Program-made: the position numbers and the translations under genes
NCBI RefSeq assembly: GCF_001278705.1
Contig: NZ_CP012600.1
Location: 3,101,917-3,165,916, forward strand
Reading direction: 5' to 3'
DNA: 64,000 bases
DNA from: Bacillus gobiensis
GTDB taxonomy: Bacteria > Bacillota > Bacilli > Bacillales > Bacillaceae
Part shown: positions 33,888-37,388 of the stretch, in pieces
Layout: the number at the start of each line of letters is the position of its first letter
How positions within the stretch are numbered: position 1 is the stretch's first letter
Notes under the pieces: model-generated
What the model was told of the DNA's origin: nothing
The model's database searches: none
What the model saw: the letters and a program-made list of their open reading frames with translations, nothing else

Positions 33888-35555
33888 TCATTGGTTAACC
33901 GCAACCTTTAACCAAGATCTTGTCATATTTCTAATGAGTCGTGGTACTGTATCGAAGGAATACGGTTTATATACACGTTCTGTCCAACGATGAGCATCAA
34001 ATCCGTATACACCAACATTAATAGAAGGGATATTTAATTTTCGTATATTTTTAATTGGCACTGGGTAAATCTTGTTCCATTCCGGAAAGTTGTCCACAAG
34101 ATAGTCTACTTCCTCATCTGTATCATGAAGTGATAAATAACTGCTATCTGTTAAATAGGGGAAAAATTTCTTCACTAAAAACGTATCACTCGTACGGGCA
34201 GAAGTTCTCGCTGTTGCTTCCTCAATAGTTTGTAAAATTTCGCGATCTCTTGCATCTTTTCCCGTTAAATAATTATGTGGACAATATGGCGGTGCATAGA
34301 AAACAATAACACATGGCGTTACTGCTTGATCTAACTCTCGCAATCGATCAACTACTTTAAAGCAGAGGTCACGTAACTCAAGCGCCGGATTTTCCTTGAG
34401 CACTTGTGATGCAGCAGCTTTCACATCTATTCCTTGTACAGAGAGCTTCTCACAATATTCTGCATAACTATACACATTTATATCCCAATTTGGACGATCA
34501 GATGGGAACTGATTCACACGGGCAAAGGCCTTATAATTCTCTTCATAATAGGCTTTTATCTCCGCTGCCGCTGCCTTTGCTTCCACTTTTAACTTCTCCA
34601 TAATATCCTTTGGAGAAGCTTCCAGTACCATAAAGTTAAAATATAAATGACTTGTTACTGCTGTTTGTACATTGTAAAATTCTTTTGTATCTCTATGGTA
34701 GAGAGCAGAAGGAGGTGTAATCAATTCACCTTCAATGTGTTCCGTTAATTTCATATTGTTATTGATACGTTTATTTAATTCAGAAGTTATCAGCGTTGGA
34801 TCGAGACCATTCAGCGTTTGTCCTGCATGGGTTTCGCGGCCATACACATAAAAACAAGGTAATAGCTTTCCTCCAGCACCAGTGAAAATATACTTGTTTG
34901 TATCACCAGGGTATAAGGCAGAAATATAGTCAGTGTTGACCGCTACTACATAATCCAAACCTTCTTCCACGCGGAGTCGCAACAACTCATCTACAGCAGC
35001 AATGACACCTGAATGTTGATTTTCTTCGACTGGATTTGCCATAAAAATGATATCTCCATCCCAATCTTCAAGATGCTCACTGAAGTGGAGAACATTCATC
35101 AAATGAACCGCAACACCACTTTTCATATCTAATGCTCCGCGTCCAAACATCCAATCCCCAGTCAAAGCCTGTGTCTGTATCTCTTCATCATTTGAATATG
35201 TTTGAAAATACTTCAATAATTCTGCTGGATCATTGGCAATCGACTGTTGCGCACCAAAATCTTCAATCCCGACTGTATCAATATGGGCATGAAATACGAC
35301 CGTTTTCTTCGAATTTACATTCCCTTTAATATGTGCAAAAACATTCTTTCTGCCAATTGCATCATTCGGTAATTCTTGAGTCCATACTTGATCAGGACGT
35401 TGTTTGAAGTAAGGAAAGCTGCGTAAAATTTGTTCAATCTTCTCTGCAATTTTAACTTCTCCATCTGTCCCATTTATACTTAATGTTTGGACAAGAGATG
35501 CTGTTAGGGCTTCTACTTGATCAGTTAATGGTAGGTTTTTTAATTTTTTATACAT
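33888..35555 (-). CDS. rocB: RocB-like M20-family peptidase
   Basis: 555 residues from the ATG at 35555 (GAGGGGTG upstream). M20 metal-ligand motifs are visible: VVFHAHIDTVG near residue 88, GRGALDMKSGVAVHL near residue 140, and ANPVEENQHSG near residue 180 with the catalytic Glu. The length and C-terminal RWTERVYKPYSFDTVPRLIRNM match Bacillus RocB, linked to arginine catabolism by its operon in B. subtilis. No other roc gene is near. Upstream lies a decayed dehydrogenase gene on the same strand, so the original operon partner may be lost. Confidence 0.85.
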   Translation of the reverse strand: MYKKLKNLPLTDQVEALTASLVQTLSINGTDGEVKIAEKIEQILRSFPYFKQRPDQVWTQELPNDAIGRKNVFAHIKGNVNSKKTVVFHAHIDTVGIEDFGAQQSIANDPAELLKYFQTYSNDEEIQTQALTGDWMFGRGALDMKSGVAVHLMNVLHFSEHLEDWDGDIIFMANPVEENQHSGVIAAVDELLRLRVEEGLDYVVAVNTDYISALYPGDTNKYIFTGAGGKLLPCFYVYGRETHAGQTLNGLDPTLITSELNKRINNNMKLTEHIEGELITPPSALYHRDTKEFYNVQTAVTSHLYFNFMVLEASPKDIMEKLKVEAKAAAAEIKAYYEENYKAFARVNQFPSDRPNWDINVYSYAEYCEKLSVQGIDVKAAASQVLKENPALELRDLCFKVVDRLRELDQAVTPCVIVFYAPPYCPHNYLTGKDARDREILQTIEEATARTSARTSDTFLVKKFFPYLTDSSYLSLHDTDEEVDYLVDNFPEWNKIYPVPIKNIRKLNIPSINVGVYGFDAHRWTERVYKPYSFDTVPRLIRNMTRSWLKVAVNQ

Positions 35556-35571
35556 TGGAACACCCCTCACT

Positions 35572-35773: not shown

Positions 35774-35801
35774 CGCTTCTATATATTCGCTTCTATATAT
35801 T
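35774..35801. repeat. Tandem duplication of 14 bases
   Basis: CGCTTCTATATATT occurs twice in direct succession just outside the dehydrogenase remnant, near its breakpoint. Confidence 0.6.
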
Positions 35802-36030
35802 GCTTATATTTATTAGCTTTGTAAATATTATTGCAAGAATTTCTCACAGGATTTATATCCGCTTCCTTCAGATTCCTGGTCTTCCCCAAACACCCTGGAT
35901 TCTTTTTTCGTATGGTACTTATATTAAGAGAATCTAACGTAAGGATGGATATTCTTCCAGATTACCCCTAAAGTTTACTTCCATATTTTTCTTATGGCGA
36001 TAATTCAGATACGAGCTGTAAATTTCATCT

Positions 36031-36066
36031 AAAATTAAAAAGCCACTCCCGATAAAGGGAATGGCT
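36031..36066 (-). terminator. Terminator reading leftward, downstream of the structured elements
   Basis: On the minus strand AGCCAtTCCC and GGGAgTGGCT form a stem followed by TTTTTAATTTT. No minus-strand protein gene lies between it and nnrD, so it would end a transcript covering the two elements at 36085-36511. A weaker T-run also follows on the plus strand. Confidence 0.65.
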
Positions 36067-36084
36067 GATTGTTTTTGAGTTAAG

Positions 36085-36262
36085 AAGCTGCATTTGCCGT
36101 ATCTAAATAAGAAAGTTTTAGACCACACTCCTCAAAGTGGGTGCTCGCAGAAACGTTCCTGTCGTCCTCTCATAATGGAGGCATGACATTCCGGTTTCGA
36201 TTTAAAACTCCCTATTACAGCTTAAAGGTTAAAACTTAATTATCATACGCGCAAAGCAGCTT
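36085..36262 (-). ncRNA. Structured element, copy 1 (candidate RNA; strand inferred)
   Basis: A 178-base element whose outer arms pair: AAGCTGC, TTTGC, GTAT, GTTTTA and ACC on the left match the right arm in order, about 25 pairs with small bulges. The core holds a hairpin around CCACACT/AGTGG and a longer imperfect stem with GAAAC, TGTC and CCTC pairing to GAGG, GACA and GTTTC. Copy 2 shares the core at about 95% by eye. Long closing stem, open middle with a side hairpin, and an apical stem recall the 6S RNA layout, but this is a resemblance only. A minus-strand terminator lies just beyond. Confidence 0.45.
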
Positions 36263-36334
36263 ATGAACATAGTCTACTCAATTATCAGATGAAAAACAAG
36301 TGAAATGCACTTTATTTTCATCCATTTTTAGGAA

Positions 36335-36511
36335 AGCTCCAATTGCCGTACTTCCATAAGAAAGTTTTAGACCACACTTCTAAAAAGTGGGTGCTCGCAG
36401 AAACGTTCCTGTCGTCCTCTCATAATGGAGGCATGACATTCCGGCTTCGATTTAAAACTCCCTATTACAGCTTAAAGGTTAAAACTTAATTATCGTACGC
36501 ACATTGTAGCT
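36335..36511 (-). ncRNA. Structured element, copy 2 (candidate RNA; strand inferred)
   Basis: Same core as copy 1, offset by 249 bases. The closing stem pairs AGCT, CAAT, TGC, GTAC, GTTTTA and ACC between arms. Relative to copy 1 both arms have changed together (GTAT/ATAC to GTAC/GTAC, TTT/AAA to AAT/ATT), so pairing is kept although sequence differs. It lies 44 bases beyond the nnrD stop on that gene's downstream side. Confidence 0.45.
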
Positions 36512-36554
36512 CACCTATCGTATTGTAACAAATCTGCACAAGAATTCAAGGGAA

Positions 36555-37388
36555 TTATTCTTCAAATTGTTTCCATACTTCTGGGAGCACATCTGTCAGC
36601 TGATGGGCTAGCATTGTATGGTTGGATCTGTTTTCTGTCCACTTTGCAGCACATGCACCGTGAAGATAGACTGCGTTCAAAACAGCTGTTTTCGGATTAC
36701 TATGGCAGCAAAGCATGCCAAGCAGCATTCCTGTTAATGTATCCCCAGTTCCTCCTTTGGCGAGCGCCGCGTTTCCTGTTGGATTTTTTCTACAATTTCC
36801 ATCGGGGAACGCAATCACGGTTTCTTCTCCTTTTAGTACAATCGTGACACCTAGCTTTTTTGCCCAATACGTGACAGAGCCGACTCGGTCTTGTTGCAGC
36901 TCTTTGATTTCCATACCGGTGATGCGGGAAAACTCGCCGGGATGAGGCGTTAAAACAATCGGAGCTTTCCGCTTTGGATAGGAACGTTCAGACAGCGCTC
37001 CAGCATCAAGTACCAGCGGCTGATTTCCTTTTAATAGCAATTCAATCGCCTTATTTACAGTTTCTGAAGCTTCAAGCCCAGGGCCAATAGCAATCGCCTG
37101 GTAGCCTTCCTCTGCTGTATCTTCTGTTACGTTAGCCCATCCATCCCGCCAATAGGTCGCTTCAGGCAGCACAGGAACAATTAACGGGATCACACTGGCA
37201 GATGTTCCGATCACGAGCTTCCCGAGTCCGCTTCTCATCGCTCCAAGTCCGGCAAGCAGAGCAGCACCTGGCATATCATCGCTTCCAGCCAGGAGAAGAG
37301 CAGTGCCGTAAGTTCCTTTATGACCTTTTGCATCCCTTATCGGCAAAGTCGCTTTTACATCATCTTCTGTCCAATACTTTGGTTCCAA
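36555..37388 (-). CDS. nnrD: ADP-dependent NAD(P)H-hydrate dehydratase
   Basis: 277 residues from a TTG with GGAGGTG upstream. Motifs: KGTYGTALLLAGSDDMPGAALLAGLGAMRSG at residues 22-55, IGPGL, VLDAGAL, the LTPHPGEFSRI substrate segment and the catalytic GGTGDTLTGML near residue 220. It repairs hydrated NADH/NADPH with ADP. Stand-alone C-terminal domain, like B. subtilis YxkO; no fused NnrE epimerase. Followed by the structured elements. Confidence 0.92.
   Translation of the reverse strand: MEPKYWTEDDVKATLPIRDAKGHKGTYGTALLLAGSDDMPGAALLAGLGAMRSGLGKLVIGTSASVIPLIVPVLPEATYWRDGWANVTEDTAEEGYQAIAIGPGLEASETVNKAIELLLKGNQPLVLDAGALSERSYPKRKAPIVLTPHPGEFSRITGMEIKELQQDRVGSVTYWAKKLGVTIVLKGEETVIAFPDGNCRKNPTGNAALAKGGTGDTLTGMLLGMLCCHSNPKTAVLNAVYLHGACAAKWTENRSNHTMLAHQLTDVLPEVWKQFEE

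Follow-up and report, generated by a model that had tools for sequence, protein, structure and literature searches.

Two tandem 6S-2 RNA genes are very probably what the element pair on the minus strand of the window (the whole stretch of 64,000 nucleotides analysed here) represents. Copy B (36330..36515, minus strand) comes first in the order of transcription and copy A (36081..36265, minus strand) second. Both are matched end to end (model positions 1-187 of 187) by RF00013, the covariance model of 6S RNA in Rfam release 15, and both lie above its gathering score of 46.4 bits, copy A with 77.3 bits (E = 1.7e-13) and copy B with 68.9 bits (E = 1.7e-11). The likeness to 6S RNA that an earlier note on this DNA had seen in the shape of the elements, with no claim of sequence identity, is thus borne out for the minus strand. 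The 6S RNA family and the tandem arrangement are both already of known kind; what is new is this one tandem pair of 6S-2 genes, together with the place it occupies and the uneven evolution of its copies.

Identity and subtype of the two elements

Across the entire genome, a single contig of 4,597,587 bases, RF00013 has three matches, namely copy A, copy B and one 6S-1 gene, which scores 104.6 bits and adjoins aspS. Judging by eye, we take the neighbours of this 6S-1 to be the aspartyl-tRNA synthetase gene on one side and a ThiF-family gene on the other. The 43 relatives have one 6S-2 gene each, to which copy A is 82-87% and copy B 77-83% identical, whereas A and B share 50-58% identity with a set of 30 6S-1 genes that includes the one of this genome; by this sequence comparison both copies are of the 6S-2 (bsrB) subtype, nearer to the 6S-2 genes of the genus than to 6S-1. 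In the available text of PMC7726162, one of the two B. subtilis-group 6S genes is assigned to the same aspS/ThiF place as the genome's own 6S-1; the labels ssrSA and ssrSB of that paper appear reversed relative to the usual 6S-1 and 6S-2. The 6S-2 of Bacillus subtilis (bsrB, RF00013) resembles the window pair in sequence type, length, predicted pRNA template and the partner 6S-1 at aspS. A Qrr RNA match at 36033-36140 scored 21.9 bits, below the cut-off of 50, and was taken as a chance match.

The earlier note had named a foldback (MITE-like) mobile element, instead of an RNA gene, as the main alternative. The long inverted arms, the presence of two adjacent copies and the different places in which 6S-2 genes sit across lineages would all suit such an element. 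However, both copies are identified as 6S RNA by Rfam, and the genome holds not many dispersed near-identical copies but three RF00013 matches, the third being an ordinary 6S-1. Moreover, all 43 relatives have two 6S matches only (one 6S-2 and one other), the pairing covaries across genera, and the flanks of A and B have nothing in common, no similarity remaining between them in the flank comparison. We therefore consider a mobile element highly improbable and treat the pair as 6S-2 genes below.

Genomic place and copy number

The pair lies between two minus-strand genes. Upstream is a gene for an NAD(P)H-hydrate dehydratase of the nnrD type (36555..37388; TIGR00196, 279 bits against a cut-off of 129.85), and downstream is a peptidase gene (33888..35570) with weak DapE/ArgE-type matches, all below their cut-offs; the latter is presumably M20-type and RocB-like. 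This locus is unlike the 6S-2 locus of any of the 43 relatives, 34 of which have the gene in a recQ neighbourhood and nine next to a gene that looks amidase-like (gene names assigned by eye). In 33 of the 34, recQ directly adjoins 6S-2, and the remaining locus (L066) retains only the LysM-type gene beyond recQ. The B. subtilis group has one 6S-2, which mostly lies with an azoreductase gene on one side and recQ on the other (available text of PMC7726162; L067, genes by eye), whereas the window has two tandem copies between the nnrD-type gene and the peptidase gene. The azoreductase-recQ location is typical of that group and not defining; in nine of the 43 relatives the gene also lies elsewhere.

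Eight window proteins, including both direct neighbours of the pair, gave no match in the surroundings of 6S-2 in the 43 relatives or of the genome's own 6S-1, and against the 120 pattern-scan loci listed they gave two matches only, both in L121 (32% and 57% identity). On the 4,598 kb contig, the genome's best match to recQ (61% identity) lies at 117 kb and the 6S-2 pair at 3,138 kb, a distance of about 1.6 Mb if the contig is circular. As for 6S-1, aspS and ThiF-type sequence were found within 1.5 kb at all 30 loci checked, the genome's own included, 14 further genomes of the genus being outside this sample.

In the genus sample, comprising Bacillus in the narrow sense (43 other genomes and that of the window), two RF00013 matches exist in each of the 43 others and three in the window's genome. 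No other genome with three matches was found among 80 genomes sampled from the family (those 44 included), some of which have one. Of 120 genomes sampled from the order, 12 (the window's included) have three matches, counted regardless of arrangement, and two have none; the genus, family and order counts were made with stricter filters, under which weak matches can be lost. A pattern scan of named genomes gave at least 120 loci, in stretches of up to 8 kb whose ends can split arrays. Among the matches listed, 10 of 120 loci (L095, L101, L107, L110, L119, L121, L147, L180, L190 and L192, with L147 and L190 carrying the same species name) hold tandem 6S-2 arrays of two or three copies less than 500 bases apart, so that tandem 6S-2 genes recur in Bacillales; in L116 and L155, likewise among the matches listed, the 6S-2 copies are 3-5.5 kb apart. 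The ten arrays are like the window pair in having at least two 6S-2 copies within 500 bases, but they have different neighbours and separate positions in the tree.

Two 6S genes side by side, ssrSA and ssrSB, also exist in the B. cereus group. In the available text of PMC7726162, however, these are described as a 6S-1 and a 6S-2 and as the only two of that genome, whereas in the window both tandem genes are 6S-2 and the 6S-1 is separate. We have met no published account of a tandem 6S-2 pair in a genome with a separate 6S-1, and the 2014 dissemination survey (Wehner et al.) may hold one. Lineages in which 6S-2 is duplicated and 6S-1 is kept single amount to natural dose experiments.

Several of the other loci deserve mention in their own right. 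Filibacter tadaridae (L116:1-7856) has three near-identical 6S-2 copies over 8 kb among ordinary genes, which include a phosphate-transport-like cluster (names by eye). Ureibacillus sinduriensis (L121:30-741 and L170:7766-7949) has a regular 6S-2 array with a period of 264 and promoter-like sequence ahead of the copies (by eye); this array probably comprises four copies, because, by sequence and spacing, L121 could begin where L170 ends. Two loci both named Mesobacillus maritimus have upstream neighbours in common, with two 6S-2 copies in one (L101) and one in the other (L132), a difference which is perhaps a recent gain or loss. Bacillus sp. M6-12 (L095) and Peribacillus saganii (L110) have a common tandem pair, whose duplication is older than their split, because the first copies group together (100/98) and the second copies likewise (100/99).

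Paired changes, conserved fold and uneven evolution

As the earlier note had it, the elements form a direct-copy pair in the same orientation, found at 36085-36261 and 36334-36511 with an offset of 249/250 bases, and their cores are nearly identical while their arms diverge: 15 of 70 arm columns are substituted, against 3 of 114 elsewhere, and together with three gap columns these make up the 21 of 187 alignment columns that differ. Of the two paired differences reported for the closing stem, GTAT/ATAC in copy 1 (A) and GTAC/GTAC in copy 2 (B) are present in register. The other, TTT/AAA and AAT/ATT, is also present, but it is not strict column-by-column compensation, because the 3' partner is shifted by one base. 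When the predicted pairs of copy A are followed into B, 50 are unchanged, three are kept by a change on one side, two are kept by changes on both sides and three are broken; so few broken pairs are seldom obtained by random substitution (P = 0.016), whereas strict column-wise compensation between A and B is not significant against it (P = 0.075).

Clearer than this column test was a test of duplex energy on the closing stems, with the 5' and 3' arms at 36242..36265 and 36081..36110 in copy A and at 36492..36515 and 36330..36359 in copy B (all minus strand). The own arms give -22.7 kcal/mol in A and -20.3 kcal/mol in B, against -16.8 and -10.3 kcal/mol for swapped arms. Among 5000 random mutants of A with an equal number of substitutions (substitutions only), the mean was -10.0 kcal/mol and 0.74% were as stable as B; the reverse test gave 0.58%. 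Own arms pair better than swapped arms, and the closing stem of copy B is kept despite its divergence.

The fold was followed further in an alignment of 31 6S-2 sequences, consisting of A, B, seven from the genus and 22 from the exact-pattern scan. In the consensus structure of 44 pairs, which is favoured by the test because it was derived from the same alignment, 96.8% of cells are paired, against 40-58% with partners slid; the earlier proposal that the fold is under selection is upheld by this retention of pairing. Changes on both sides exist at 11 of the 44 pairs, a number reached by two of 500 shuffles, and the covariation score of 0.166 exceeds all 500 shuffles (0.102 +/- 0.005) and all six slides (at most 0.061). 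The invariance of helices 3-5 is partly by construction, because the scan pattern that picked 22 of the 31 rows fixes their 5' sides, but the covarying pairs sit in helices 1, 2, 6 and 8, outside the pattern. The rod-shaped fold with a covarying closing stem, by which 6S RNAs are recognized, is thus conserved. Taken singly, copy A has a minimum-energy fold well below shuffles (z = -3.08); that of copy B (z = -1.27) is not clearly better than shuffles and lacks the canonical middle.

The predicted pRNA templates of copy A (36224..36237, minus strand) and copy B (36474..36487, minus strand) are identical, and from both the pRNA would read AAAGGUUAAAACUU, which fits the rule of GG at pRNA positions 4/5 given in the available text of PMC8414754. 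All 39 different sequences in the genus alignment carry AAGTTTTAACCTTT unchanged; these relatives were found via Rfam and not by pattern, and they show the constraint on the template better than the pattern-picked rows do. The 3' central hairpin, in contrast, is altered in copy B (36371..36393, minus strand), where it reads CACCCACTTTTTAGAAGTGTGGT and still pairs. Among 142 different 6S-2 sequences, CACCCACTTTGAGGAGTGGT is found in 116, the similar CACCCACTTTTAGAAGTGGT in three and CACCCACTTTTTAGAAGTGTGGT once, in copy B. The idea that the copy B hairpin is without parallel was dropped, since three other sequences have a similar form.

A tree was built from 142 different 6S-2 sequences out of 176 (identical ones merged, and three partial matches with a model span below 170, one each in L107, L119 and L190, left out). 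In it, A and B are sisters (98/94) and the window pair groups only with itself, so that 6S-2 was duplicated within this lineage. The branch of copy B (0.21) is about eight times longer than that of copy A (0.026), and the mean numbers of private changes against 36 outgroup sequences are 11.7 for B and 3.1 for A. Where a column is conserved to at least 90% within the genus, B has eight derived changes and A none, nine differences being unresolved; the P value of 0.008, calculated as if the changes were independent, is too good, because five of the eight columns are adjacent in one hairpin beside an indel and may represent one or two events. A lineage-specific duplication with uneven evolution fits these data best, and the core of A and B may be subject to gene conversion.

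The long branch, the derived changes at conserved columns, the lower Rfam score and the weak fold could also mean that copy B is a redundant 6S-2 gene decaying into a pseudogene while copy A does the work. We regard this as unlikely: 99.3% of random mutants of A have a less stable closing stem than B, the 3' hairpin of B has changed with pairing retained, its predicted pRNA template is intact, and the better of the promoter-like sites described below belongs to B. With uneven evolution of two retained genes as the preferred reading, copy A would be the conserved working copy, and copy B would be constrained in its fold and otherwise relaxed or specialising. A fast-evolving copy whose stem is preserved through matched changes distinguishes the free parts of the RNA from the constrained ones.

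Transcription signals and proposed function

A predicted sigma-A promoter lies ahead of copy B (36522..36549, minus strand), with TTGAAT-16-TACAAT, TG ahead of the -10 box and 9/12 in the consensus scan. This call rests on position and not on score or count, because the promoter-like sites of the region number four against 1.6 +/- 1.6 in shuffles, and one site, with 10/12, lies inside the nnrD-type gene (36641-36613). A possible weak promoter of copy A, TTGTTT-17-TAGACT (36271..36299, minus strand), was read by eye, and by eye it is in register with promoter-like sequence ahead of copy 2 in L095 and L110; it was missed by the consensus scan, whose sole site there (36267-36239) falls inside copy A. 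Between the copies is a hairpin (36287..36323, minus strand; -14.6 kcal/mol, z = -2.75) with an inner stem of five pairs followed by GTTTTT, possibly a processing signal or a leaky end of copy B, which the terminator scan did not pick up. An intrinsic terminator follows copy A (36041..36066, minus strand) with a 10-pair stem and a tail of TTTTAATTTT (-18.0 kcal/mol, z = -6.17). It is the only one found by the terminator scan in 35950-36700, and it agrees with the minus-strand terminator noted earlier just beyond the elements.

Going by these sequence signals, a joint transcript with some separate initiation seems most likely: transcription would start before B and stop at the terminator after A, with a possible weaker start before A. 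A variant that is compatible with two tandem 6S-2 genes, and that we rate somewhat below an even chance, is a single precursor made from the promoter before B and then cut, with the dose simply doubled. The position of the sole terminator found after A, the weakness of the promoter before A and the spacer hairpin are consistent with it, as is the finding that the tandem 6S genes of B. thuringiensis are co-transcribed; in the available text of PMC7726162, promoter activity is reported only before the first gene of the B. cereus-group ssrSAB operon, and a precursor is made and then cut apart. Against a single start stands the promoter-like sequence before A, in register with that of the tandem relatives.

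According to the available texts of PMC8876501 and PMC12005410, 6S RNA looks to the polymerase like an open promoter; it binds to holoenzyme that carries the housekeeping sigma factor, and pRNA synthesis sets the RNA free. By analogy, the two RNAs, about 185 nt each, are predicted to fold as rods with an open middle mimicking an open promoter, to bind the sigma-A holoenzyme and to restrain the polymerase in stationary phase; each would be released when the polymerase copies it as a template into a short pRNA. Two copies would mean a higher dose of 6S-2. In B. subtilis, deletion of 6S-2 reportedly affects biofilm, to go by the title of a 2021 paper. The function of 6S-2 is called unclear in the available text of PMC7726162. 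In 6S-1, a mutation disrupting the hairpin shifted pRNA lengths (PMC8876501, available text), and a role of the 3' central hairpin of 6S-2 in release may be proposed from this likeness. A bolder idea, which we hold to be rather doubtful, is that 6S-2 is itinerant in Bacillales, a self-contained transcription unit that moves and multiplies, in contrast to a stationary 6S-1, and that copy B is turning here into a third kind of 6S RNA, with fold and pRNA template kept, arms and 3' central hairpin changed, and the release of the RNA from polymerase altered.

Finally, a perfect tandem 14-mer (CGCTTCTATATATT twice) is present at 35774-35801 of the window, in the gap of about 470 bases between the terminator and the peptidase gene.
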